Part shown: positions 16,933 to 29,479 of the stretch, piece after piece
Numbering within the stretch: the stretch's first letter is position 1
How the letters are laid out: each line of letters begins with the position of its first letter
Source of the DNA: Chryseobacterium oleae
Lineage (GTDB): Bacteria > Bacteroidota > Bacteroidia > Flavobacteriales > Weeksellaceae
DNA: 64,000 nt
Assembly: GCF_900115055.1 (NCBI RefSeq)
Contig: NZ_FOVD01000001.1
Location: 124,001 to 188,000 of the forward strand
Direction: 5' to 3'
Notes under the pieces: model-generated
Told to the model about the DNA's origin: nothing
Seen by the model: only the letters and a program-made list of their open reading frames with translations
Database searches by the model: none
Made by a program: the position numbers and the translations under genes

Positions 16933-18054
16933 ATGAGGTTTGAACTTTATACAGAAGAAAGCGATGACAGAACGGTGTACATCACCGGAAATTTCAATAA
17001 CTGGAACCCGAGAGACTACAGTTATCAGCTTAAACAGCTGGATTCACACAATTATTTCATAGAAATCGACAATGAAATTCTTCCCGATACCGTGGAATAC
17101 AAATTCACCAAAGGCGGATGGGAAAATGTAGAACTCGATAAGTACGGAAATATCACCCCCAACCGGAAGGCTGATAAAGCAAAAGGGAAAACATCTGATA
17201 GCATTGAAAAGTGGAGGCTCAACTGGGGTCCTTTCAAAAAAGAATTTTTCCCGATCGCAGAAGTTATTTCCGAGGAATTCTACATTCCGCAGCTGGAACG
17301 TTACCGTAAAGTCTGGGCTGTATTGCCGTATGATTATTATGTAGCTGATAAAAGCTATCCGGTACTTTATCTACAGGACGCTCAAAATCTTTTCAACGAA
17401 GGAAGCGGCTACGGAAACTGGGAAATCGACAAAAAACTGTCTATCCTTGCGGAATACGGCCGTGGCGACGTCATTATCATCGCTATAGAACACGGCAGCG
17501 AAGAGCGTATCAAGGAATATATTTTTGACAACGACAATGTGGCCAACGGTTCAGAAGGAAAAAAGTACATCCGTTTCATTACCGATACATTAAAACCTTT
17601 TGTGGACGAACATTACCGTACTAAAAAAGACCGGGACAATACCGGAATCGGAGGCAGTTCTTTAGGAGCACTGATCAGTATTTACAGCGGATTCCTTTAT
17701 CCGGAAGTGTATTCCAAACTGCTGATCTTCTCCCCTTCACTTTGGGTAGAACCTAATAATAATTTCCCAATGATGAGCTTCAGGGTTCCGTTTAAAACAA
17801 AAATTTATCTCTACGGCGGTGGCCAGGAAGGTTCTAAAATGGTGAAGAGAATTCATGTTTTCGAAGAATATTTAAAACGCTGGGAAAAGAAAAATCTTTT
17901 TGATTTTGAATTCAGGACAAGCATCAATCCGGAAGGAACCCACAGCGAATTTTACTGGTCACAGGAGTTTCCGCGAGCCATTGAATGGCTGTTCTATGAC
18001 AACACGGAAAACCCGGTAGAAGTAAAACCACAACAACAAAGCATTAAAAATTAA
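16933..18054 (+). CDS. Esterase with N-terminal glycogen-binding-like domain
   Basis: 373-residue two-domain protein without a signal peptide. Residues 1-~90 look like an AMPK/CBM48-type E-set domain (VYITGNFNNWNPRDYSYQL, then VEYKFTKGGWENVELD). Residues ~115-360 are an esterase-D-like alpha/beta hydrolase with the nucleophile elbow GIGGSSLGAL (second Ser), an acidic residue in the YLYGG region and a late His in GTHSEFYW. It may act on an ester attached to a glucan, or the domain may only dock it. It faces the glycogen operon and sits four bases ahead of an M17 aminopeptidase. Confidence 0.78.
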   Translation: MRFELYTEESDDRTVYITGNFNNWNPRDYSYQLKQLDSHNYFIEIDNEILPDTVEYKFTKGGWENVELDKYGNITPNRKADKAKGKTSDSIEKWRLNWGPFKKEFFPIAEVISEEFYIPQLERYRKVWAVLPYDYYVADKSYPVLYLQDAQNLFNEGSGYGNWEIDKKLSILAEYGRGDVIIIAIEHGSEERIKEYIFDNDNVANGSEGKKYIRFITDTLKPFVDEHYRTKKDRDNTGIGGSSLGALISIYSGFLYPEVYSKLLIFSPSLWVEPNNNFPMMSFRVPFKTKIYLYGGGQEGSKMVKRIHVFEEYLKRWEKKNLFDFEFRTSINPEGTHSEFYWSQEFPRAIEWLFYDNTENPVEVKPQQQSIKN

Positions 18055-18058
18055 GTTT

Positions 18059-19474
18059 ATGAAATTAATCAACAAAAAAAATAAAAAATACACCCAGATT
18101 TTTCAACTTTTCACCGAGGAAGAATGGACAAAATCCAGTAAAAATTACAATAAAAATGTCGCTTCTTTTTTCACCGGAAAGAAAAATGAGGTTTTTATCC
18201 ACACTGACGACGAAAGCATTACTTATCTGATTGGCTTAGGAAAATCTACCTTACAGAATTTCGAAGTTCAGCAGGTAGCCGTTAAATTTTCCCAAACACA
18301 AAAAGACAAGCTTCAGTCTGCTCCTACTCTTTTGGTAGCAGATTTCCTGAAAGAAAAACAGTTTGAAGAATTTATAAAAGGATTGCTTTTCGGAACATAC
18401 ACTTATCCTTTTGATAAAAAACATGCCTGCTGGAATCCCAAATTTGAGATCCATTTCGAAAATATCAGTCAGAAAAAATTAGATGCTATAGGTTCAAAAG
18501 CCGAAGCTTTGGCTAACGGACAAACTGCCTGTCAGGAATGGCTGAATAAACCTGCCAATCTTAAGAAACCGGATATGCTAAGTCTGTATCTTAAAAATTT
18601 AGCCAAGAAACATGAATTAAAATACACCGTTTTCAACAGAAAAAAATGTGAGGAACTGGGACTTGGCGCTTATCTGTCGGTGAATCAGGGAAGTGCATAT
18701 GATGCTGCTTTTACGATTATAGAGTATAAAACAACGGTTAAAAATGCCAAAACATTTGGTCTCGTAGGAAAATGCGTTCTGTTTGATACCGGAGGAGTTT
18801 CCCTAAAGAATCCAGACAATATGCACTATATGAAATCTGATATGGGCGGTGCTACGGCTGTTATCGGAACCTTAATATACGCGGCTGAAATGAAGATTCC
18901 GGTGAATATCATTGCGGTGCTTCCTATTACAGACAATGCTATTTCTGAAAAGGCTTTTCTTCCGAGCGATGTCATTACAGCCTACAACGGAAAAACCATC
19001 GAAGTTCTGAATACAGATGCCGAAGGAAGAATGATCCTGGCAGACGGCCTTTCTTATCTGGCTAAAAACTATAAAACAGATTTCCTGATCGATCTTGCCA
19101 CGTTAACGGGAAGCTCTGTGAGAATGTTCGGAGATACCTGCGGAGCGATGTTCTCCAATAATGATGACCTGAAGAATCTTCTGGTAAAAACCGGAGATAG
19201 CACTAACCAAAGAGTCTGGAACCTTCCTTTGTGGGACATCTGGAAAGACGACATCCAGTCTGATGTGGCGGACCTTAAAAACATCTCTATGAAACCTATC
19301 GGCGACTGCATTATAGCGGCTAAATTTCTGGAGCAGTTTATAGAAAATCACCCAAAATGGGCGCATCTGGATATTGCTGGCGTAGCATTCGGAAGTACGG
19401 GATATGCAAAGGAAAAAGCTGCAACCGGCTATGGAGTGCAACTGCTAGCCGATTTAATTGAAAATTATCACTAA
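18059..19474 (+). CDS. Leucyl aminopeptidase family (M17) peptidase
   Basis: Cytosolic two-metal aminopeptidase, 471 residues. All M17 metal and catalytic residues are visible: VGKCVLFDTGG (Lys and Asp), MKSDMGGA (Asp) and NTDAEGRMILADGL (Asp, Glu, Arg). The weakly conserved N-terminal macro-like domain spans residues 1-~165. It usually releases N-terminal residues from short peptides. The gene is tightly coupled to the upstream esterase and precedes the amidoligase island, so a role in trimming or recycling a ligase-made peptide is possible but inferred from position only. Confidence 0.9.
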   Translation: MKLINKKNKKYTQIFQLFTEEEWTKSSKNYNKNVASFFTGKKNEVFIHTDDESITYLIGLGKSTLQNFEVQQVAVKFSQTQKDKLQSAPTLLVADFLKEKQFEEFIKGLLFGTYTYPFDKKHACWNPKFEIHFENISQKKLDAIGSKAEALANGQTACQEWLNKPANLKKPDMLSLYLKNLAKKHELKYTVFNRKKCEELGLGAYLSVNQGSAYDAAFTIIEYKTTVKNAKTFGLVGKCVLFDTGGVSLKNPDNMHYMKSDMGGATAVIGTLIYAAEMKIPVNIIAVLPITDNAISEKAFLPSDVITAYNGKTIEVLNTDAEGRMILADGLSYLAKNYKTDFLIDLATLTGSSVRMFGDTCGAMFSNNDDLKNLLVKTGDSTNQRVWNLPLWDIWKDDIQSDVADLKNISMKPIGDCIIAAKFLEQFIENHPKWAHLDIAGVAFGSTGYAKEKAATGYGVQLLADLIENYH

Positions 19475-19499
19475 AAATTAGTTTTTTTCAAAATTTCTC

Positions 19500-19517
19500 T
19501 GTACACTTGATTGTACA
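19500..19517. promoter_or_regulatory. Two TGTACA palindromes, candidate operator
   Basis: TGTACA at 19500-19505 and again at 19512-19517, 12 bp centre to centre, 60 bases before the -7-like element of the amidoligase operon. The regulator is unknown. Confidence 0.3.
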
Positions 19518-19577
19518 TTCTCAAAAACGCAGCTAATTCATGTTTTTAACATTAATTAATCAATAAAAAATTGCTTT

Positions 19578-19585
19578 TATTTTTG
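19578..19585 (+). promoter_or_regulatory. Candidate -7 element of the amidoligase operon
   Basis: TATTTTTG, an exact TAnnTTTG match, 29 bases before the ATG at 19615. It suggests that the island can be transcribed independently of the M17 gene. Confidence 0.5.
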
Positions 19586-19614
19586 ATAATTTACTAAAAA
19601 TTAAAAAACATTAT

Positions 19615-20826
19615 ATGGAGGAGAAAATTATAGTATGTATTTCGTGCTATTACAAGGGCTATGATTTCATAGATGAAATGAAGAAGCTCGGTAACAAAGT
19701 AATTTTGGTAACGTCGGAGGGCCTTAAAGAAAAAAACTGGCCCTGGCACGCCATCGATGAGGTATTTTATATGACAGAATTAAGACCGTCCGTCTGGAAT
19801 CTGGAACATCTGGTTCAGGGATTTTCCCATCTCATGACCACCAGAAAAATAGATGCAGTAGTAGCACTTGATGACTATGATGTAGAAAAGGCGGCGTTGA
19901 TCAGAGAAACATTCCGTATCCCCGGGATGGGACAGACTACCCACCGGTATTTCAGAGATAAACTGGCCATGCGCCAGAAGGCAAAAGATTCGGGAATCAG
20001 TGTTCCGGAATTTACAGCTGTTTTTAATAATGACGAAGTCAACAGCTTTATAGAAAAAGTTCCTGCTCCGTGGGTCTTAAAACCAAGATCGGAAGCCTCT
20101 GCATCCGGGATTAAAAAGTTTTCTTCCAAAGATGAACTTTGGGCGGAACTGAATACATTGGGAGAAGAACGTCACCTGTTTTTGCTGGAAAGCTTTAAAC
20201 CTGGTGATGTATACCATGTAGACAGTCTGACCTTTAATAAAGAAATTGTATTTACTTCTGCTTCAAAATACCTGGCCCCGCCGATGCAGGTTTCTCACGA
20301 AGGCGGCGTATTCAGATCAAAAACACTGGGAAGATATTCTGAAGAATTTAAAGCGCTTGATGAAGCCAATACCAAAGTTCTATCCAGCTTCGGACTTCTG
20401 AACGGAGCTACCCATACCGAATTTATCCGCGGAAAAGCAGATGGAAAATGGTATTTCCTTGAAACTTCTTCCAGAGTGGGCGGTGCACATATTCCGGATT
20501 TGGTAGAGGCCTCAAGCAATATTAATATCTGGCGAGAATGGGCCAAAATTGAAGATGCTCTGCTGCGTGGAAAAAGCTACCAGGCTTCAAAACCTACAGG
20601 TTACTACTCAGGACTGATTATCGCCCTGATCAAAGATAAAGAGCCGGACTATACCGCTTTTGAAAGTGAAGAAGCCATCAAATTTCTTCCGATCGACCAC
20701 CATGTCGGAATTGTTTACAAATCCACCGATCCGGATATCATACAGGAAAGATTAGACAGCGCTGCAGAAAAGATACAGGCAGAAATGCTGAATATTCTCC
20801 CTCCGAAAAGCAAACTGACAAGCTAA
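19615..20826 (+). CDS. ATP-grasp ligase (L-amino acid ligase-like)
   Basis: 403-residue carboxylate-amine/thiol ligase of the carbamoyl-phosphate-synthase-like ATP-grasp group. Residues 1-~110 form the pre-ATP-grasp Rossmann-like domain. The ATP-grasp core has VLKPRSEASASGI (nucleotide Lys and glycine-rich loop), LESFKPGDVYHVD, and the metal-binding ETSSRVGGAHI (Glu, Arg). It would activate a carboxylate as acyl phosphate and join it to an amine. It is the first gene of a same-strand island with an esterase, a second ATP-grasp enzyme, a GCS2 ligase and an amidotransferase. Substrates unknown. Confidence 0.85.
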   Translation: MEEKIIVCISCYYKGYDFIDEMKKLGNKVILVTSEGLKEKNWPWHAIDEVFYMTELRPSVWNLEHLVQGFSHLMTTRKIDAVVALDDYDVEKAALIRETFRIPGMGQTTHRYFRDKLAMRQKAKDSGISVPEFTAVFNNDEVNSFIEKVPAPWVLKPRSEASASGIKKFSSKDELWAELNTLGEERHLFLLESFKPGDVYHVDSLTFNKEIVFTSASKYLAPPMQVSHEGGVFRSKTLGRYSEEFKALDEANTKVLSSFGLLNGATHTEFIRGKADGKWYFLETSSRVGGAHIPDLVEASSNINIWREWAKIEDALLRGKSYQASKPTGYYSGLIIALIKDKEPDYTAFESEEAIKFLPIDHHVGIVYKSTDPDIIQERLDSAAEKIQAEMLNILPPKSKLTS

Positions 20827-20851
20827 AAACCATAACAAAAGAAATTTATCA

Positions 20852-21565
20852 ATGCCGCATATAGAACATACAGATTATTACTCCAATATATTAGGAACAA
20901 ACCTTAAAGTAGAAGTGACGGGACATTACGGACATCCGATCATTATGTTTCCTACTTCTCAGGGGCAATATACCCAAAATCACGATTTCCATCTGAACGG
21001 AAGCATCAACTGGTTTATAGAACAGGGAAAGGTAAAGCTTTATAATGTTCAGACCATCGATGGCTGGAGTTTTTATGATGAAAAGATTTCACCCCAGAAA
21101 AGGATCAAAAATTATGAGCTGTATGTGCAGTTCCTGATCCAGGAATTCATCCCGTACATCCAGAAAATTCACAAAACACACCGTGTCGCAGTAGCCGGAG
21201 CAAGTTTCGGAGGGTACCATGCCGCTAATTTTGCTTTCCGGTTTCCGGATGTGGTTTCCCATCTCTTCTGTCTTTCGGGAGCTTTCAGCATCAGGAATTT
21301 CATGGACGGATATTCGGATGAGCTGGTTTATTTTAACTGTCCGAGAGAATTTGTAAAGAACGACGAAGCCTGGAAATATAAACATATGCACATCGTTCTA
21401 AGCACTTCAGACCAGGACATCTGCAGGGACAAAAATATTGAAATGGCCGAAATCCTAAGCTCAAAAGGCATCGACTTCTGGTATGATGAGAGAAAATGGA
21501 TCAATCATGACTGGCCGTTATGGAGAATGGTATTTCCAACATTTATAAGTACTTTTTTTTCGTAA
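20852..21565 (+). CDS. Esterase family alpha/beta hydrolase
   Basis: 237-residue esterase-D-like hydrolase covering one alpha/beta domain. It shows the nucleophile elbow AVAGASFGGYHAANFAFRFP and an ending WINHDWPLWR that supplies the catalytic His. It has no signal peptide. It resembles the C-terminal domain of the esterase at 16933-18054, so the locus holds two related hydrolases around the peptide-bond enzymes. It lies 25 bases after the first ATP-grasp gene. It may hydrolyse an ester or proofread a ligase product; this is inference from context. Confidence 0.8.
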   Translation: MPHIEHTDYYSNILGTNLKVEVTGHYGHPIIMFPTSQGQYTQNHDFHLNGSINWFIEQGKVKLYNVQTIDGWSFYDEKISPQKRIKNYELYVQFLIQEFIPYIQKIHKTHRVAVAGASFGGYHAANFAFRFPDVVSHLFCLSGAFSIRNFMDGYSDELVYFNCPREFVKNDEAWKYKHMHIVLSTSDQDICRDKNIEMAEILSSKGIDFWYDERKWINHDWPLWRMVFPTFISTFFS

Positions 21566-21624
21566 AAAGCAGTACATTTAAGAAGATAAAAAATAAAACA
21601 TACACCAATTTAAAAACAGAAATT

Positions 21625-22578
21625 ATGGCAAAAAAAGTGGGAATTCTATTCGGTATGGAAGATACGTTTCCTTGGGCGTTTATCGACAAGGTGAATGAAC
21701 TGGGCGGCGGCGAAATTATTGCTGAACCGGTTAATATCGACAAACTGGAACAGGGTGCTGATTACGGCTATGCAGTCATTATCGACAGAATTTCGCAGGA
21801 TGTTCCTTTTTACAGAGCGTATTTAAAAAATGCTGCACTTAACGGAACTTATGTAATTAATAATCCATTCTGGTGGAGTGCAGATGAAAAATTTTTCAAT
21901 AATGCACTGATGTCAAAACTGGGAATTCCGCTTCCGAAGACGGTACTTCTTCCTTCGCACGAAAGGCCAACGGATACTTCAGAAACTTCATTCAGAAACC
22001 TGAAGTTTCCTCACGACTGGGAATATATTTTCGATTATGTAGGATTTCCTGCTTATATGAAACCTCATGACGGTGGTGGATGGAAAAGTGTCTACAGAGT
22101 GGAAAATCCTGATGACCTTTGGAACAAATTAAGCGAAACGGAACAGCTGGTGATGATGGTTCAGGAAGAAATTGTCTTTGACGATTATTACAGGGTGTAT
22201 TGCCTGGGCAAAAAATATGTACACATTATGCCATATGAGCCGCGTAATGCGCATCATCTGAGATATGCGACCACGCATCAGACCAAAGGAGCAGAACTGG
22301 AAAAACTGTTAAAAACCATTCATGATTATACGATTACCATGAATGAAGCACTGGGCTATGATTTCAATACGGTAGAATTTGCGATCAGAGACGGAATTCC
22401 GTATGCGATTGATTTCTGTAATCCGGCTCCTGATGCTGATAAAAATTCGGTAGGTGAAGAAAACTTTGCATGGATTGTAGAACATTCCGCCAAACTGGCC
22501 ATTGAAAAAGCAAAAGAATACATTCCGGGGAAACCTAATATCTCCTGGGGTACTTTTGTAAAAGACTCCGTAAAATAA
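21625..22578 (+). CDS. ATP-grasp ligase, RimK-like
   Basis: 317 residues from the ATG giving MAKKVGILFGMEDTFPWAF. The frame is open upstream, but only through AT-rich non-family sequence. The ATP-grasp core shows FPAYMKPHDGGGWKSVY (nucleotide-binding Lys and glycine-rich loop), MVQEEIVFDDYYRVYCLG, and FNTVEFAIRDGIPYAIDFCNPAPDAD in the metal-binding region, where the usual E-x-N appears as D-F-C-N. It is the second ligase of the island, 59 bases after the esterase and 30 before the GCS2 gene. It probably forms an amide bond on a small molecule or peptide. Confidence 0.82.
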   Translation: MAKKVGILFGMEDTFPWAFIDKVNELGGGEIIAEPVNIDKLEQGADYGYAVIIDRISQDVPFYRAYLKNAALNGTYVINNPFWWSADEKFFNNALMSKLGIPLPKTVLLPSHERPTDTSETSFRNLKFPHDWEYIFDYVGFPAYMKPHDGGGWKSVYRVENPDDLWNKLSETEQLVMMVQEEIVFDDYYRVYCLGKKYVHIMPYEPRNAHHLRYATTHQTKGAELEKLLKTIHDYTITMNEALGYDFNTVEFAIRDGIPYAIDFCNPAPDADKNSVGEENFAWIVEHSAKLAIEKAKEYIPGKPNISWGTFVKDSVK

Positions 22579-22608
22579 CCATTAAAAAATAAAAAAACAC
22601 GAAAAAAA

Positions 22609-23727
22609 ATGCATCAGTTTACTATTGGAATCGAGGAAGAATATCAGATCATTGATGTTGAGAGCAGAGACTTAATATCTCATGTTTCGAAAATAATTGA
22701 GGGCGGAAAAGCGGTTTTAAGTGAAAATTTAAAACACGAGATGCACGAATCCATGATTGAAATGGAAACCGGCATCTGCCAGAATATCAAGGAAGCCAGA
22801 GCGGAACTGACCAATCTGAGACGACATTTGATCAACACAGCCCATGAACAGGGTCTTCGGGTAGCCGGAGGCGGAACTCACCCTTTTTCAAACTGGGAGC
22901 ATAATACGATCACAAACGGTGAACGTTATAACAAGATCGTAGACGATATGGGTGATGTGGCCCGCGGAAATCTGATTTTCGGACTTCACGTTCATATCGG
23001 AATCCCCAACCGTGAAGAAGGCGTAAGGATTCAGAATGTGATGCGTTATTTTCTGCCGCACGTGTATGCGCTTTCTACGAACTCTCCTTTCTGGATCGGA
23101 AGAAATACAGGTTTTAAATCTTACAGACAGGAGATCTTTGTAAAATTCCCAAGAACGGGTATTCCCAGCTATTTCAATTCATTGGCTGAGTTCGACAGTT
23201 ATGTAGAACTTCTTGTAAAAACGGGAACCATTGATAATGCCAAGAAAATCTGGTGGGATCTGCGTGTACACCCGTTCTACCCTACCATTGAGTTCAGAAT
23301 CTGTGATATGCCTTTAAGGATAGAGGAAACGGTTTGTATGGCTGCCATTATGCAGAGTTTAGTGGCGAAAATCTATAAACTTCATCAACAGAATTTAAGT
23401 TTCAGAAGTTACAGAAGATTATTACTGAACGAAAACAAATGGAGAGCCTCCAAAAGTGGTATTGAAGCCCATCTGATCGATTTCGGGAAAGAAGAATCTG
23501 TTCCTTATCCACATCTATTGAAAGAGCTTCTTGAATTCATTGATGACGTTGTCGATGATCTTGACTGCAGAAAAGAAGTTGAGTACGCCTGGACTATTCT
23601 CGAAAACGGAACCGGAGCTGACAGACAGCTTAAAGTCTTTAATGAGACCGGCGATCTTACCAAAGTAGTAGACTACATGATCTCAGAAACAGAGTATGGC
23701 ATAACACATGGCGAAACCGCTTCATAA
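22609..23727 (+). CDS. Carboxylate-amine ligase, GCS2/YbdK family
   Basis: 372-residue glutamine-synthetase-fold ligase related to plant-type glutamate-cysteine ligase and E. coli YbdK. It opens with FTIGIEEEYQIID, whose Glu cluster binds metal. The core has GLRVAGGGTHPFSNWE, NLIFGLHVHIGI and TIEFRICDMPLR, all family hallmarks. YbdK-type proteins have weak gamma-glutamylcysteine synthetase activity and their true substrates are often unknown. Here it lies between an ATP-grasp ligase and a glutamine amidotransferase, pointing to a dedicated pathway, not glutathione synthesis. Confidence 0.9.
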   Translation: MHQFTIGIEEEYQIIDVESRDLISHVSKIIEGGKAVLSENLKHEMHESMIEMETGICQNIKEARAELTNLRRHLINTAHEQGLRVAGGGTHPFSNWEHNTITNGERYNKIVDDMGDVARGNLIFGLHVHIGIPNREEGVRIQNVMRYFLPHVYALSTNSPFWIGRNTGFKSYRQEIFVKFPRTGIPSYFNSLAEFDSYVELLVKTGTIDNAKKIWWDLRVHPFYPTIEFRICDMPLRIEETVCMAAIMQSLVAKIYKLHQQNLSFRSYRRLLLNENKWRASKSGIEAHLIDFGKEESVPYPHLLKELLEFIDDVVDDLDCRKEVEYAWTILENGTGADRQLKVFNETGDLTKVVDYMISETEYGITHGETAS

Positions 23728-23736
23728 TATTTTCGG

Positions 23737-23744
23737 TAACTTTG
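23737..23744 (+). promoter_or_regulatory. Candidate -7 element of the amidotransferase gene
   Basis: TAACTTTG, an exact TAnnTTTG match in the 35-base gap before the ATG at 23763. It could give a secondary promoter inside the island. Confidence 0.4.
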
Positions 23745-23762
23745 TAAAAAATATGAAGTAGT

Positions 23763-24596
23763 ATGAAAGATATTCGAATCGCATTGATAGACATGAACAA
23801 CAATCATGTGAATCAAGGCTTTAGAAATATTAAAGAGATTTCGGAAGCATTCCAGCAGAGCTCTGAAGAAAATGTAATCATAGAAACATTTGATGTAAGG
23901 TTTAAAAATGAAATGCCTAACATCGAAGATTTTGACATTTTTATTTCTTCAGGCGGCCCGGGAAATCCGCACAGAGAAGGTCTGGAATGGGAAGACCGGT
24001 ATGCAGCTTTTTTGGACTCTGTCTTAGAGCACAACCAATACAATGAAGATAAAAAATATCTTTTCCTGATCTGCCATTCATTCCAACTGGCAAGCATCCA
24101 CTGGAAACTGGGAAATATCTGCAAAAGAAGATCTTATTCTTTCGGGGTAATGCCTGTTCACAAAACAGAGGATGGAGAACAGGAGTTTTTGTTCAAAAAC
24201 CTTCAGGATCCCTTCTACGCCGTAGATTCAAGAGCATATCAGTTCATTGAACCGGATATGACCCGTTTTGATGAATTGGGTATGAAAATCATGGCTATTG
24301 AAAAATCGAGACCCCATATCGATTTGGAAAGAGCGGTAATGGCGGTACGTTTCTCCGATGAAATATTCGGGACCCAATTCCATCCGGAAGCTGATCCTAA
24401 AGGCATGATTGAAAACCTGAAAGACGAAAAAAATAAAACGGCAATGATCGAGAACTTCGGAATGGAGAAATATCTTGAAACCGTGGACAGAATTGATGAT
24501 GAAGACAAGATTATCCTTACCAGAAGCCAGATCTTACCGAGATTCCTTCAGTCTGCAAAAAAAAACATTTTGAAGGGAAGTGAAGTTTTAGTTTAA
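23763..24596 (+). CDS. Class I glutamine amidotransferase
   Basis: 277-residue GATase1 protein. The glutaminase triad is visible: nucleophile in FLICHSFQLAS, and His and Glu in GTQFHPEADP. An oxyanion-type ISSGGPGNPHREG lies upstream. The nucleophile elbow reads ICHSFQ where many family members have GxCxG, so it may release ammonia from an amide other than glutamine. No fused synthetase domain is present; the ammonia or cleavage product would go to one of the neighbouring ligases, or the enzyme may hydrolyse a gamma-glutamyl amide, as PuuD-like relatives do. It is the last gene before a strong inverted repeat. Confidence 0.87.
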   Translation: MKDIRIALIDMNNNHVNQGFRNIKEISEAFQQSSEENVIIETFDVRFKNEMPNIEDFDIFISSGGPGNPHREGLEWEDRYAAFLDSVLEHNQYNEDKKYLFLICHSFQLASIHWKLGNICKRRSYSFGVMPVHKTEDGEQEFLFKNLQDPFYAVDSRAYQFIEPDMTRFDELGMKIMAIEKSRPHIDLERAVMAVRFSDEIFGTQFHPEADPKGMIENLKDEKNKTAMIENFGMEKYLETVDRIDDEDKIILTRSQILPRFLQSAKKNILKGSEVLV

Positions 24597-24612
24597 GCTT
24601 TTTATACAAAAA

Positions 24613-24691
24613 ATGCTTCGACTCCGCTCAGCATGACAATGCTGAAAAACAGCCAGTATTAGAGGTGTCTTGCTGAGCGGAGTCGAAGCAT
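24613..24691. repeat. Perfect 21-bp inverted repeat (REP-like)
   Basis: Arms 24613-24633 and 24671-24691 are exact reverse complements, with core CTTCGACTCCGCTCAGCA, separated by 37 bases. TTCGACTCCGCTCAG-type sequences recur in many bacterial genomes, including Flavobacteriia. This is a dispersed intergenic palindrome, not a gene. Confidence 0.85.
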
Positions 24692-24729
24692 CGTTAATAA
24701 AATATTGTATTAACAACAATACAACTAAA

Positions 24730-24755
24730 AATCGGGCAGAAATGCTCGATTTTTT
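24730..24755 (+). terminator. Hairpin with T-run before the third ATP-grasp-like gene
   Basis: Nine-bp stem (AATCGGGCA / TGCTCGATT, one G-T pair) with a GAAA loop, then TTTTT. It lies 25 bases upstream of the next ATG and may end the island transcript. Confidence 0.65.
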
Positions 24756-24779
24756 AAAATCAAATCACAAAGAAAAAAT

Positions 24780-25961
24780 ATGATCCCACAATACAGAAAA
24801 CAATTCAACCAGGAGTTTTCACAGGAAAAATACGATCAGCTTAAAGACATTCTTACGGAAAAAGGCGGTATGGCACCAGCCTTCAGAATTTCGGAAAGTC
24901 CTATTTTTCTTCCTAACGAATTTAAAAACAAACTTTTTGACGCCAGCGACAGCATTATTGACCAGATCAAAGCACTGCCTGCTGAAGTCCTTTCTAAAGC
25001 TGTTCCCGATAACTGCAGGGTTCCCAATGATACCAAACAGCCTCATTTTTTCACGATAGATTTCGGGATCTGCCGGAGCGAAAACGGCGAGATCGAACCC
25101 CAGTTGATCGAACTGCAGGCTTTTCCTTCATTATATGCCTTTCAAAAAACTTTTGAAGAAACGTTTTGTGAGGTCTACCCTTTTCTCTCAGAGATCAAAA
25201 ATAAAATGCCGAATGAGGAATTTAAGAATCATTTAAAGCAACTTATTGTAGGAGACGAACACCCTGAACATGTTATTTTACTTGAAATATTTCCAGAGAA
25301 ACAGAAGACGGCAATAGACTTTGCATTAACGGAAAAACTATTAGGCATAAAGACAGTGTGCCTGACAAAAGTAAAAAAAGAAGGCAAAAAATTATTTTAC
25401 GAAAACAATGGAAAACTGACTGAGATCAAAAGAATTTACAACCGTGTCATCTTTGATGAACTCGACAGAATTCCAGATTTAAAAGCCGGATTCGATTTCC
25501 TTGAAGATATTGATGTACAATGGGTAACGCATCCTAACTGGTTCTTTAAGATCTCCAAATTTCTTCTTCCGATGCTGAAGCACCAGTTTGTTCCTAAAAG
25601 TTATTTCCTTCACGAATTCCCGGAGCATGAAAGTTTAGAACACTTTGTACTGAAACCTTTATTTTCCTTTGCCGGAAGCGGTGTGAATTTGAATCCTACA
25701 AAAGAAATTACAGAAGCTATTGAGGACAAGGAGAACTATATCTTACAAAGAAAGGTAACCTACGAACCTATTTTCGAAGATATTAACGGAGAGTTTTCAA
25801 AAGCAGAAATAAGACTTCTTTATATCTGGCACGAGAATGAAGAACGTCCTGTTCTACTGGAAAACCTAGGAAGAATGACAAAAGCTGCTATGGTGAACGT
25901 AGATTTTAATAAGAAAGATGCCATATGGATTGGGAGTTCCAATGCGTTTTTTGGAGACTAA
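24780..25961 (+). CDS. Unassigned protein with ATP-grasp-like C-terminal half
   Basis: 393-residue cytoplasmic protein with no signal peptide. I do not recognise the family firmly. The C-terminal part looks like an ATP-grasp core: HFVLKPLFSFAGSGVNLNP (Lys plus glycine loop), YILQRKVTYEPIFE and a late LLENLGRMTKAAMVNV segment. The N-terminal part has FFTIDFGICRSENGEIEPQLIELQAFPSLYAFQ, reminiscent of glutathionylspermidine-synthase-type or circularly permuted ATP-grasp proteins. It follows the amidoligase island on the same strand but is separated by the inverted repeat and a terminator-like hairpin. Confidence 0.65.
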   Translation: MIPQYRKQFNQEFSQEKYDQLKDILTEKGGMAPAFRISESPIFLPNEFKNKLFDASDSIIDQIKALPAEVLSKAVPDNCRVPNDTKQPHFFTIDFGICRSENGEIEPQLIELQAFPSLYAFQKTFEETFCEVYPFLSEIKNKMPNEEFKNHLKQLIVGDEHPEHVILLEIFPEKQKTAIDFALTEKLLGIKTVCLTKVKKEGKKLFYENNGKLTEIKRIYNRVIFDELDRIPDLKAGFDFLEDIDVQWVTHPNWFFKISKFLLPMLKHQFVPKSYFLHEFPEHESLEHFVLKPLFSFAGSGVNLNPTKEITEAIEDKENYILQRKVTYEPIFEDINGEFSKAEIRLLYIWHENEERPVLLENLGRMTKAAMVNVDFNKKDAIWIGSSNAFFGD

Positions 25962-25993: not shown

Positions 25994-26019
25994 AAATCCT
26001 TCTGAATTCAGGAGGATTT
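25994..26019 (+). terminator. Hairpin terminator
   Basis: Eleven-bp stem (AAATCCTTCTG / CAGGAGGATTT, one T-G pair) with a four-base loop, then TTCTATTTTT, just after the stop of the preceding gene. Confidence 0.75.
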
Positions 26020-26054: not shown

Positions 26055-26558
26055 ATGTACTCAATAAATCTTAAAAATGTTGATGAACTTATTTTCCAGC
26101 CTCTTGAACTGAAGCTTTTAAATATAGAAGAAGACACTGAATCTAAAGACTATTCCGGTTGCGGTTTTACACTCAGCGATTTAAAAATTAAATTCCGCAC
26201 AGCTAAAATAACACCTACTAAAACAGGTCAGTTTGTAACCATCTGGAAACGAAATGAAAAGGGAGAAACAGCTCCATTTGATTCAAATGATGTCTTTGAT
26301 TTCTATCTGATCTCTGCTTTCAATGATACTCATAAAGGGATTTTTATCTTCCCGAAGGAAATACTCGTTGAAAAACAAATTTTGTCCCACGGAAAAAAGA
26401 TGGGAAAAAGAGGAATCAGAGTCTATCCAACCTGGGATCTTACAGAAAGCAAACAGGCAAAAGCGACTCAAAAATGGCAGACAGAGTATTTTTTTGATCT
26501 TTCACAAAACTCAGAAGCGCATCTTCAAAAAGTTAAAATATTGTTTGATTTGGAATGA
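26055..26558 (+). CDS. MepB family protein
   Basis: 167-residue single-domain protein of the MepB family, named after a gene of the Staphylococcus aureus mepRAB locus. It shows YSGCGFTLSDLKIKFRTAKITPTKTGQFVTIWKR-like family features, then FDFYLISA, GIFIFPKEIL and RGIRVYPTWDLT. The molecular function of MepB is not established. There is no MATE efflux pump or MepR-like regulator beside it here, so the drug-efflux context is not conserved. It converges on cphA with a bidirectional hairpin between. Confidence 0.85.
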   Translation: MYSINLKNVDELIFQPLELKLLNIEEDTESKDYSGCGFTLSDLKIKFRTAKITPTKTGQFVTIWKRNEKGETAPFDSNDVFDFYLISAFNDTHKGIFIFPKEILVEKQILSHGKKMGKRGIRVYPTWDLTESKQAKATQKWQTEYFFDLSQNSEAHLQKVKILFDLE

Positions 26559-26848: not shown

Positions 26849-29479
26849 TTATGAATTTTTATCGTCTTCCAGCAGCTCCCGTGCCTGATATTCCTGTACA
26901 AGGTCGATTGCGTTTGAAATAACGTCACTTAAAGCCGTGATGAAAGTTCCGTCCTCAGCCATTCCCATGGCGTGTTTTAAAGCTTCAATCTCTTTTGGAA
27001 TAATCTCATAGCTTACATCTCTTCCTGCTTCATTAATTCCATCAATGATTAATCCATTGATTTCCTCTTCAGTTCTTCCTCTAAGGTGTTTTTCATTTCT
27101 AATGATGATGTAATCGAACATTCTTCCGGCGATTTTTCCACACTCCCTGATATCGCTGTCACGTCTGTCACCCACTCCGGAAATAATACCTATTTTCTTT
27201 GTAGATTCTACGTTTTTAAGATAATCTTCGATCGCTTCATACCCCGAAGGATTGTGAGCAAAATCAATAAGTACCTTGAAGCTTTTGAATTTAAAAACAT
27301 TCAGTCTTCCCGGTGTAAGCTGCGCACTCGGAATAAAAGTTCTCAGAGAATTGGAAATATCTTCAATGGCAAAACCGTAAAGATAACTTGCTAAACTAGC
27401 TGCCAGAACATTTTCGATCATAAATCTAGCCTTTCCTTCCATCGTGATCGGGAAGTCTTTGGCCTTTCCAATTCTGATCTTCCAGTCGCCTTTTTTAATC
27501 GTTACAAAACCTTCTTCATAGATGCAGGTAATTCTTCCTTCTTTCGCAAATTTTACAATGTGGGGATTATTTTCATCCATACTGAAAATGGCAACTTTGC
27601 TGTCAAGATCATTGATGATCTTCATAGAATATTCGTTGTCTGCATTCAGAACGCTCCAGCCGTTTTTCTTTACACTGTCCAGAACGACTCTTTTTACTTT
27701 CGTCAGGTCCTTCAGATTGTGGATATCATTCATTCCTAAATGATCTTCCTCAATATTGGTTAAAACCCCGATATCACACTGTGAAAACCCTAAGCCTGAA
27801 CGAAGAATTCCTCCTCTGGCCGTTTCCAGAACAGCAAATTCAACTGTCGGATCTTTTAAAACAAATTCAGCAGAAAGCGGTCCCGTAGTATCACCTTTTG
27901 TAAGCATCGTATTCTGAATATAAATACCGTCAGAAGTCGTGAAGCCTACTCTGTAGCCGTTGCTTTTTACAATATGCGAGATCAGTCTTGTGGTCGTTGT
28001 TTTTCCGTTGGTTCCTGTTACTGCAATAATTGGAATCGTAAAAGGTTTCCCCGGAGGATAAAGCATATCAACCACCGGTGCCGCTACGTTTCTCGGAAGA
28101 CCTTCACTTGGCGCTAAGTGCATTCTGAATCCCGGTGCAGCATTCACTTCTATGATCGCAGCGCCGCTTTCTTTAAGGGGTTGCGTAAGGTTTTCAGCCA
28201 TAATATCGATACCGCAGACATCCAAGCCAATGATTTTGGAAACTCTTTCGGCCATCGTAATATTTTCCGGGTGTACCATATCCGTAACGTCTATAGATGT
28301 TCCACCCGTAGAAAGATTGGCTGTAGACTTTAAATACACGATTTCTCCTTTCTGAGGAACCGTTTCAAGAGTATAATGAAGTTTTTCAAGAAGTTCTGAA
28401 GTATCTTTATCCACTTCTATTTCGGTAAGGACATTTTCATGACCATATCCTCTTCTCGGATCTCTGTTTTCTTTATCAATCAGCTCCTGAAGATTCAGTT
28501 CACCATCACCCACAACGTGAGCAGGAACTCTTCTTGCCGCAGCTACCATTTTATTATTAATGACTAAAACCCTGAAGTCATAGCCTGTAACATATTTCTC
28601 TACAATTACTTTTCTGGAATATTTCTGGGCATGTTCCAACCCTATTTTGGCAGCTTCCCAATCGTTTACATTGATGGAAGACCCTTTTCCATGGTTTCCG
28701 TCCAATGGTTTCAGAACTATAGGATAGCCAATCTTTCTGATAACATCCGTTAAGCCTTCTTCATCCACTACCAGATCCCCGATAGGAACCGGAATAGCTG
28801 CATCGTGAAGCATTTTTTTGGTCAACTCTTTATTGCATGCAATATCTACTGCGATAGAACTTGTTTTTCCGGTAATGGTAGCCTGAAAACGTTGCTGATT
28901 CACACCGTAACCAAGCTGTACAAGCGAGTTTGTTCCTAATCTGATCCACGGAATCCTTCTGGAAACCGCTTCCTCTACAATACTTCCCGTAGAAGGACCA
29001 AGACGGACACGTTCTCTGATTTCTTTTAATCTATGGATACAGGCATGGATATCATATTCTTTGTCTTCAATAAGAGCTTCTGCGATCTTTACCGCTTCCT
29101 CAGCAGCATAAATCCCTGCATTCTCTTCAATATAATTAAAGACCACATTATATATTCCCGGCGATTTTGTTTCACGGGTTCTTCCGAAACCTACATCCAT
29201 ACCCGCCAGCGTCTGTATTTCCAGGGCGATATGTTCAATGACATGTCCCATCCAGGTTCCCGTTTCTATCCGGTGAAAAAATCCGCCCTCTACTCCTTCT
29301 GAGCATCTGTGAGTGATGAGAGACGGGATCAGTTTTTGAATTCTTTCCCTGAATCCGTCGATCTTGTTGGTAGGATAATTTTCCATTTCTTCAAGGTCCA
29401 ATCTCATCTGTATCAGCTTCTTTCTTCTGATACTCCAGATATTTGGGCCGCGTAATGCCTGTATCTTCTCAATTTTCAT
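26849..29479 (-). CDS. cphA: Cyanophycin synthetase
   Basis: 876-residue CphA1-type enzyme. It builds multi-L-arginyl-poly-L-aspartate, adding Asp to the backbone and Arg to each Asp side chain, with ATP. The N-terminal domain (1-~160) is of the primer/polymer-binding type. The ATP-grasp domain (~215-485) has K257, GNHGKGSS at 262-268 and EVNAAPG at 444-450. The Mur-ligase-like domain has P-loop TGTNGKTTTT at 489-498 and DFAHNPSGYE in the C-terminal part. All key motifs are intact, so both half-reactions look possible. It diverges from cphB across a 198-base region with paired promoters and an inverted repeat. Confidence 0.95.
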   Translation of the reverse strand: MKIEKIQALRGPNIWSIRRKKLIQMRLDLEEMENYPTNKIDGFRERIQKLIPSLITHRCSEGVEGGFFHRIETGTWMGHVIEHIALEIQTLAGMDVGFGRTRETKSPGIYNVVFNYIEENAGIYAAEEAVKIAEALIEDKEYDIHACIHRLKEIRERVRLGPSTGSIVEEAVSRRIPWIRLGTNSLVQLGYGVNQQRFQATITGKTSSIAVDIACNKELTKKMLHDAAIPVPIGDLVVDEEGLTDVIRKIGYPIVLKPLDGNHGKGSSINVNDWEAAKIGLEHAQKYSRKVIVEKYVTGYDFRVLVINNKMVAAARRVPAHVVGDGELNLQELIDKENRDPRRGYGHENVLTEIEVDKDTSELLEKLHYTLETVPQKGEIVYLKSTANLSTGGTSIDVTDMVHPENITMAERVSKIIGLDVCGIDIMAENLTQPLKESGAAIIEVNAAPGFRMHLAPSEGLPRNVAAPVVDMLYPPGKPFTIPIIAVTGTNGKTTTTRLISHIVKSNGYRVGFTTSDGIYIQNTMLTKGDTTGPLSAEFVLKDPTVEFAVLETARGGILRSGLGFSQCDIGVLTNIEEDHLGMNDIHNLKDLTKVKRVVLDSVKKNGWSVLNADNEYSMKIINDLDSKVAIFSMDENNPHIVKFAKEGRITCIYEEGFVTIKKGDWKIRIGKAKDFPITMEGKARFMIENVLAASLASYLYGFAIEDISNSLRTFIPSAQLTPGRLNVFKFKSFKVLIDFAHNPSGYEAIEDYLKNVESTKKIGIISGVGDRRDSDIRECGKIAGRMFDYIIIRNEKHLRGRTEEEINGLIIDGINEAGRDVSYEIIPKEIEALKHAMGMAEDGTFITALSDVISNAIDLVQEYQARELLEDDKNS

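Follow-up and report, generated by a model that had tools for sequence, protein, structure and literature searches.

We examined a 64,000-nucleotide (nt) stretch of the Chryseobacterium oleae genome (contig NZ_FOVD01000001.1; host genome Chryseobacterium-type, 5.28 Mb), here called the window, which holds the gene unit est0-lap-grasp1-estB-grasp2-gcs2-gat-grasp3 at positions 16933-25961, all on the plus strand. Its core is estB-grasp2-gcs2-grasp3 with one of two hydrolases, gat or a peptidase of family M29, between gcs2 and grasp3, and the order and strand of this core are constant from Chryseobacterium to Acidobacteria, Opitutia and Ignavibacteria. The set is conserved, single parts of it are replaced by unrelated ones, folds are predicted for its ligases, catalytic-type residues are retained, and grasp2 and grasp3 co-occur in genomes where they are not linked. 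We regard it as an even call that this island is a self-contained cassette, in which successive ATP-dependent ligations would yield a small gamma-glutamyl-type peptide or peptidyl-amide without the ribosome, followed by trimming or recycling, and the pathway is probably separate from that of cyanophycin. An earlier note on the window, made from the sequence alone, had proposed a pathway for a peptide or amide metabolite, perhaps a cyanophycin derivative or a gamma-glutamyl compound; the conserved amide-ligase pathway is upheld and the cyanophycin derivative is not, and a gamma-glutamyl compound is plausible from the presence of a YbdK-type ligase of the GCS2 family together with a ligase of glutathione-synthetase fold.

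Conservation, exchange of parts and co-occurrence

The locus set came from one search of relatives' contigs with gcs2 and holds the best 80 of 585 relatives, so that there are at least 80 such loci. In Weeksellaceae we compared 40 loci with both 10-kb flanks (tblastn, E 1e-30; the title of L034 names no more than 'Flavobacteriaceae'). The gene-order comparison that the earlier note had called for places lap, grasp1, estB, grasp2, gcs2, gat and grasp3 together in 40/40 loci, with est0 in 38. In the five nearest named relatives (L002-L006, all Chryseobacterium) gcs2 is 98-100% identical, and purifying selection on the genes of the unit is strong, with ratios of nonsynonymous to synonymous substitution (dN/dS) against five congeners of 0.008-0.069 from est0 to grasp3, lowest in grasp2 and gcs2 (35 of 40 comparisons; five gave no value because dS was saturated). 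In Chryseobacterium sp. E1 (L013), tblastn finds many genes of the region broken into two or three parts, probably by sequencing indels.

The core extends well beyond this family. The 35 distant loci (L047-L081) come from Flavobacteriaceae, Cytophagales, Saprospiraceae, Ignavibacteria, Opitutia, Acidobacteria and others; in them, a six-frame profile scan found grasp2 in 33, grasp3 in 29, estB in 23, M29 in 20 and gat in eight, and the complete five-part core in 19. The groups in which the core recurs are Flavobacteriia, Ignavibacteria, Opitutia and Acidobacteria. The M29 profile was built from 14 of its 20 loci; a count by open reading frames (ORFs) gave 17, as shadow frames hide genes in GC-rich loci. 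Some misses lie at sequence ends: in L059 and L060, which lack grasp2, the sequence starts less than 300 nt from gcs2, and three of the six loci without grasp3 (L052, L063, L077) reach the end of a contig. The slot between gcs2 and grasp3 never holds both gat and M29 (0/35). The 5' genes do not travel with this core: est0-like genes occur at 5/35 distant loci, in opposite orientation, and lap and grasp1 have no match among the ORFs of these loci (lap threshold E 1e-6), grasp1 being a member of the unit in Weeksellaceae.

Ligases are exchanged as well. In 15 of 296 genomes grasp2 and gat are present and grasp3 is absent. In all four loci opened from them (L093, L094, L095 and L112, from G112, G030, G219 and G254) a circularly permuted ATP-grasp gene separates grasp2 from gat and occupies the place of gcs2, with estB 5' of grasp2 in three of the four. 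The permuted protein scores 24-32 bits against PF14403, below the cut-off of 32, in the three scanned; a gcs2 match occurs elsewhere in G112 and G254 and in neither G030 nor G219. Since unrelated hydrolases share one slot and a permuted ATP-grasp can lie in the place of gcs2, the combination of ligation with amide hydrolysis outlasts changes of enzyme family.

Beyond lineage-bound families, no further recurrent neighbour of at least 90 amino acids (aa) was found in the distant phyla. Among the lineage-bound neighbours are a kinase-like family in five acidobacterial loci and a family of about 1250 aa beyond grasp3 in six loci of Ignavibacteria (L054, L059, L061, L067, L068, L074), with an alpha-amylase domain in L054, the sole member scanned. 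In two Cytophagales loci (L053:11155-11739 and L071:5411-5992) a protein of 193-194 aa lies directly 3' of gcs2, in the place of gat or M29; an HNH_3 domain is present in the L053 copy, which the L071 sequence resembles, and grasp3 was not found nearby.

Across 296 genomes sampled from the phylum (E limit 1e-20; phylum and family names inferred from the window's relatives), grasp2 has a match in 108, grasp3 in 92, gcs2 in 103, gat in 70 and the cassette M29 in six. The last figure counts matches at E below 1e-160 out of 37 genomes with M29 at E <= 1e-20, the remaining 31 (1e-21 to 1e-39) being read as other M29 peptidases, and the gcs2 figure includes nine gcs2-only genomes (E 1e-89 to 1e-117), perhaps of another GCS2 group. 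grasp2 and grasp3 occur together in 89 genomes and grasp3 without grasp2 in only three (Fisher p 3e-52, relatedness uncorrected), and gcs2 is present in 87 of the 92 grasp3 genomes. The two ligase genes lie within 10 kb of each other in 49 of the 89 genomes, and more than 10 kb apart or on other contigs in 40, a number that fragmented assemblies may inflate; in G059, G043, G033, G269 and G292 they are far apart on one contig. Scattering in relatives, which the earlier note had named as grounds for doubting a common pathway, thus occurs in part, yet the genes still co-occur: linkage alone cannot explain the pairing, because the two are not neighbours in those 40 genomes, and their co-occurrence when apart argues for a shared function. 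In g3, a genus belonging to the same order, G142 and G218 carry the four genes grasp2, gcs2, gat and grasp3, and G154 carries three of them; among the genomes listed, the 11 of g3 that lack grasp3 have none of the four.

In four genomes (G007, G087, G160, G287; loci L117-L120) a divergent grasp2 (E 1e-65 to 1e-114) is the sole cassette gene at the locus among those tested; it is perhaps a different subfamily.

Predicted folds and catalytic residues

Residues are called invariant here within chosen alignment subsets (A1 to A4 with 23, 28, 18 and 20 rows, A5 with 14 of 17, A6 with 15 and A7 with 28). The earlier note had read two ATP-grasp ligases and a third ATP-grasp-like protein; grasp1 is ATP-grasp-like with all matches below the Pfam cut-offs (PRK02186 at 57.6 bits is likewise below that model's cut-off), and the calls for grasp2 and grasp3 are borne out by the structure prediction that the note had suggested.

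The signature ligase grasp2 has no Pfam match in the profile search of the window's proteins. Its AlphaFold model (built from 23 sequences for a protein with one additional N-terminal residue; predicted local distance difference test, pLDDT, 85.2) aligns best with RimK (Z 21.1) and with LysX and ArgX (Z 19.9-20.6, one LysX entry 18.6), followed by Ddl (about 18), at 13-18% identity to RimK, LysX and ArgX in structural alignment. K147, E252, D264 and N267, which by analogy would be metal and ATP ligands, are invariant in 23/23 rows, and fold and residues together point to an ATP-grasp enzyme of RimK/LysX type.

These fold matches, with structure titles that pair RimK with RpsF and LysX or ArgX with LysW, would suit the modification of a protein or carrier, whereby grasp2 would extend the tail of a protein, or a small amino-group carrier protein, by residues that gat, M29 or the M17 aminopeptidase would remove. 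Such a role is unlikely in our view: no small carrier-like or target gene recurs among the cassette ORFs of at least 90 aa (shorter ones were not clustered), in which the cassette differs from the RimK, LysX and ArgX systems, and the ligase classes of gcs2 and grasp3 act mostly on small molecules. A graspetide-type cluster for a ribosomally synthesized and post-translationally modified peptide would also bring ATP-grasp ligases together with hydrolases, and grasp2 matches the graspetide ligase PsnB as well (Z 18). We judge this extremely improbable, as no extra ORF in the same size range recurs, and a precursor inside the cassette was rejected for want of space in the compact core of Halpernia L024 (no gap exceeds 59 nt, and gat and grasp3 are 7 nt apart), which does not cover unlinked precursors.

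For grasp3, whose single Pfam match is below its cut-off, the AlphaFold model (28 sequences, pLDDT 91.6) gave VIA-align Z scores of 25.3 for YgiC, 24.9 for YjfC, 24.6 for GspS, 23.4 for human GSS, 22.0 for Cp1B and 21.9 for trypanothione synthetase, with 327-356 residues, nearly the whole model, aligned at 3.3-3.8 Å. This group comprises 25 entries with Z 25.3-19.1 over 317-367 residues, the next entries scoring 12.3 and 8.0, and Foldseek recovered the same GSS/GspS/YgiC group. The sequence match to YgiC is weak (E 0.005; 15% identity in structural alignment). D94, E111, Q113, K292, E343 and R345 are invariant in 28/28 rows, and by its full-length predicted fold grasp3 would belong to the GSS/GspS/YgiC superfamily, enzymes of which couple acid or peptide carboxylates with amino acids or amines (PMC12568646).

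The remaining family calls of the earlier note hold by curated profiles: estB passes PF00756, gcs2 passes PF04107 (cut-off 21), TIGR02050 (307 bits against 176) and PRK13515, and gat passes PF00117. gcs2, the sole GCS2 match of the host genome, is also close to the YbdK structures 1r8g (E 5e-65) and 1tt4 (E 3e-65), which places it in the YbdK/GCS2 family by sequence. In gat the triad C104-H207-E209 is invariant in 18/18 rows, as expected of a class I glutamine amidotransferase-like hydrolase. The peptidase that takes its slot in other loci can be assigned to family M29 (PF02073 at 55-58 bits against 27 in 3/3 scanned), with E209, E281, E301, H307, H327 and D329, which we take to be the M29 metal ligands, invariant in 14/14 rows. 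The probable catalytic triad of estB is S118-D189-H219 (S118 and H219 in 19/20 rows, D189 in 20/20). In one metagenome-assembled genome of Ignavibacteria (L069, 8248-8964), E and K replace the triad Ser and His of estB, and grasp2, gcs2 and grasp3 are kept.

Extent of the unit and the neighbouring cyanophycin genes

The six genes named by the earlier note lie at 19615-25961 on the plus strand, as it had placed them; the island starts further upstream than it had reported, with est0 and lap (Table 1). Gaps from est0 to grasp3 are 4, 140, 25, 59, 30, 35 and 183 nt, taking a grasp2 start that was set by alignment (a longer ORF from 21520 overlaps estB), and the unit is probably a single operon ending at the hairpin 3' of grasp3. 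This hairpin is among the two longest stems of the window scan; terminator-like sites number 15 in the window against 12.8 (standard deviation 3.6) in shuffles, so that it is weak evidence alone, and the promoter-like sites (49 against 38.6 expected, standard deviation 6.0) are uninformative.

Table 1. Genes of the unit, nearby genes and hairpins (window positions).
Feature	Position	Strand	Description
est0	16933..18054	+	PF00756-type esterase, 373 aa; PF00756 82 bits; probable first gene of the unit
lap	18059..19474	+	M17 leucyl aminopeptidase; PF00883 349 bits; starts 4 nt 3' of est0
grasp1	19615..20826	+	ATP-grasp ligase; ATP-grasp matches all below Pfam cut-offs
estB	20852..21565	+	PF00756-type esterase; PF00756 36 bits; core gene
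grasp2	21625..22578	+	RimK/LysX-type ATP-grasp ligase by predicted fold; signature core gene
gcs2	22609..23727	+	YbdK-type carboxylate-amine (gamma-glutamyl-type) ligase; PF04107 221 bits
gat	23763..24596	+	class I glutamine amidotransferase-like hydrolase; PF00117 37.2 bits, cut-off 22.8
grasp3	24780..25961	+	ligase, predicted glutathione synthetase/GspS/YgiC fold; E-x-Q motif
terminator-like hairpin	25994-26019	+	11-pair stem, T-rich tail; probable end of the unit
MepB-like gene	26055-26558		PF08877; between the island's hairpin and cphA
terminator-like hairpin of cphA	26829-26804		separate from the island's hairpin
cphA	26849..29479	-	PF18921 162 bits; convergent neighbour, outside the unit
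cphB	beyond cphA	+	TIGR02069 match
asparaginase-like gene	beyond cphA	+	named by eye; isoaspartyl peptidase in the earlier note

The earlier note had set the island directly before cphA. The neighbourhood is as it said; the directness is not, since a hairpin and the MepB-like gene intervene. cphA lies on the minus strand. The MepB-like gene is present in just 7 of the 40 Weeksellaceae loci, so that the gap between grasp3 and cphA is a variable spot. cphA itself adjoins the island, within 10 kb, in 25/40 Weeksellaceae loci, those of Chryseobacterium and Halpernia. Thirteen of the 15 loci without a nearby cphA were searched genome-wide (L033 and L034 were left out), and ten have it elsewhere; two Elizabethkingia and one Cloacibacterium keep the island with cphA absent from the genome, as it also is from two Flavobacteriaceae searched alongside (15 genomes in all). 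Adjacency to cphA is thus a feature of the Chryseobacterium and Halpernia loci that the island does not require.

Over the phylum, the cyanophycin synthetase family PF18921 occurs in 34/296 genomes, 18 of the 108 with grasp2 and 16 of the 188 without (odds ratio 2.15, p 0.04, relatedness uncorrected), and the corresponding figures for gat are 17/70 and 17/226 (odds ratio 3.9, p 0.0004, relatedness uncorrected). This weak co-occurrence and the adjacency in Weeksellaceae are what favours a pathway for a cyanophycin derivative or for cyanophycin salvage, which we nevertheless consider very improbable: PF18921 is missing from 90 of the 108 grasp2 genomes, cphA is convergent on the opposite strand with hairpins between, and three Weeksellaceae genomes have the island without it. 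A cyanophycin link was accordingly rejected on phyletic spread, strand and intervening hairpins.

At the other end of the unit a gene named glgB by eye lies upstream on the opposite strand, in 28 of the 40 Weeksellaceae loci, and the start of est0 (16933-17200) has, by eye, the look of a glycogen-binding module, without a Pfam match at 0.01. A glycogen link was considered and set aside, as glgB, the alpha-amylase-domain family of Ignavibacteria and the look of the est0 N-terminus are lineage-specific only.

Candidate products, known systems and significance

In the cassette as we picture it, gcs2 would couple a glutamate-type acid with X, an amine or amino acid, and grasp2 and grasp3 would extend the product with more amino acids or an amine. 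A terminal residue would then be hydrolysed, as deprotection or turnover, by gat, or by M29 elsewhere, and perhaps also by the M17 aminopeptidase in Weeksellaceae; the esterases may process an ester or thioester form, and grasp1 would be an additional ligase of Weeksellaceae. The order of these steps, the gamma linkage and the roles of the hydrolases are what we infer. A gamma-glutamyl-type product is favoured by the pairing of a GCS2-family ligase with one of GSS/GspS fold, which is the logic of glutathione and glutathionylspermidine synthesis, and by a precedent in which a GCS2-like family is found next to an amidotransferase-like thiol peptidase (PMC2588565).

Several observations weigh against this proposal. 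Both gat and M29 are missing from seven of the 35 distant loci, grasp3 following directly 3' of gcs2 in L058, L059, L069 and L074, and in 28/296 genomes grasp2, gcs2 and grasp3 are accompanied by neither hydrolase, so that a hydrolase is not required; estB was not found in 12/35 distant loci. grasp2 occurs without grasp3 in 19 genomes, four of them without any other tested cassette gene, G154 has gcs2-gat-grasp3 with no grasp2 at a locus whose contig continues, and the Fisher tests ignore shared ancestry. The in-cell substrate of YbdK-type enzymes is not necessarily glutamate. As for grasp3, the residues described as important in Cp1B are R139, D141, E163 and N165 (PMC12568646); where Cp1B has E163-x-N165, grasp3 has an invariant E-x-Q, and there is no counterpart of R139, position 92 being T, A, C, Q or S, a correspondence assigned by motif and not by residue-level superposition. 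A D...E-x-Q motif without the R could possibly mean altered metal binding. Moreover, YgiC is listed as lacking glutathionylspermidine synthase activity (PMC12506659), and the fold therefore does not give the reaction.

The same enzyme pair would suit a glutathione-like compound for redox or detoxification purposes, be it an alternative low-molecular-weight thiol or a peptidyl-polyamine. The family of estB, PF00756, includes S-formylglutathione hydrolase. Cys-Gly dipeptidase activity is on record for a leucyl aminopeptidase as well (PMC7852106). We find such a compound quite unlikely, as gcs2 fails the cyanobacterial GshA model gshA_cyano (TIGR02048) with 61.2 bits against a cut-off of 249 and as the bacillithiol gene bshC is present irrespective of the module: it matched in 79/80 tested genomes (78 above the curated cut-off), 39/40 with the module, hand-picked for spread from the 89 grasp2-grasp3 genomes, and 40/40 of those without, taken from the 176 genomes with none (the first 38 of a random list and two chosen by hand). 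With bshC in carriers and non-carriers alike, the module does not replace bacillithiol, and replacement by a new thiol was rejected as having no support. As to a classical pathway by GshA plus GshB, the host genome has its single GCS2 match, and the glutathione synthetase domain GSH-S_ATP (PF02955) has two partial matches there (28.0 and 25.4 bits, cut-off 23), one inside cphA; the model is unspecific, matching also in 9/14 control genomes, archaea included.

A compatible solute made under osmotic stress, in the manner of the NAGGN operon, would call for a similar mix of roles. PA3459-PA3461 make the osmoprotectant NAGGN, a non-ribosomal dipeptide amide, from a small operon with ligase, amidotransferase and glutamyl aminopeptidase (PMC8070244). 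The enzyme families are unlike those of the cassette, with the asparagine-synthase-type and GNAT-type enzymes of NAGGN not among the cassette's family matches, and this explanation appears distinctly improbable.

A broader reading of the gamma-glutamyl cassette is that its product is a cofactor-like small molecule, so far undescribed and widespread in Bacteroidota, Acidobacteria, Verrucomicrobia and Ignavibacteria, such as a gamma-glutamyl peptidyl-amine or a similar conjugate. The RimK-, YbdK- and glutathione-synthetase-type ligases would build the conjugate and the interchangeable hydrolases would turn it over, making it a general metabolite beside bacillithiol, as glutathionylspermidine is beside glutathione; this we put forward as a doubtful extension.

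Among known systems, the synthesis of glutathione, glutathionylspermidine and trypanothione shares with the cassette a GCS2-family ligase, a ligase of GSS/GspS/trypanothione-synthetase fold (grasp3, Z 20-25) and hydrolases. The cassette differs in its YbdK-type gcs2, in a RimK-type ligase (grasp2, Z 20-21) as its most widespread part, in the E-x-Q of grasp3, in a class I amidotransferase-like or M29 hydrolase and in its coexistence with bshC. YbdK (1r8g) is of the same sequence family as gcs2, which sits in a multi-ligase cassette. YgiC and YjfC of E. coli, the closest folds to grasp3 over nearly its whole length, are named peptidylpolyamine synthetases (PMC12568646). The earlier note had stated that no characterised product was known for this exact set, and none was found among the matches listed from open-licence PMC papers, where titles and abstract openings do not describe the cassette. 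We know of no characterised product either. Its novelty is provisional, and an earlier prediction is possible: Iyer et al. in 2009 (Mol Biosyst 5:1636) reportedly predicted amidoligase neighbourhoods of GCS2-type, ATP-grasp and peptidase genes, which may overlap with the cassette.

Of the genomes sampled in the phylum, about one third (108/296) carry the signature ligase grasp2, and 89 of these also have grasp3, without any product found. As one compact operon, the gene set would allow tests of what YbdK-type and YgiC-like ligases do, and its interchangeable hydrolase and ligase parts constitute natural controls. Should the product be a general cofactor, the cassette would represent new core metabolism in bacteria that are common in the environment and in association with hosts; should it be a lineage-specific metabolite, the cassette would be a tractable source of amide-forming enzymes.

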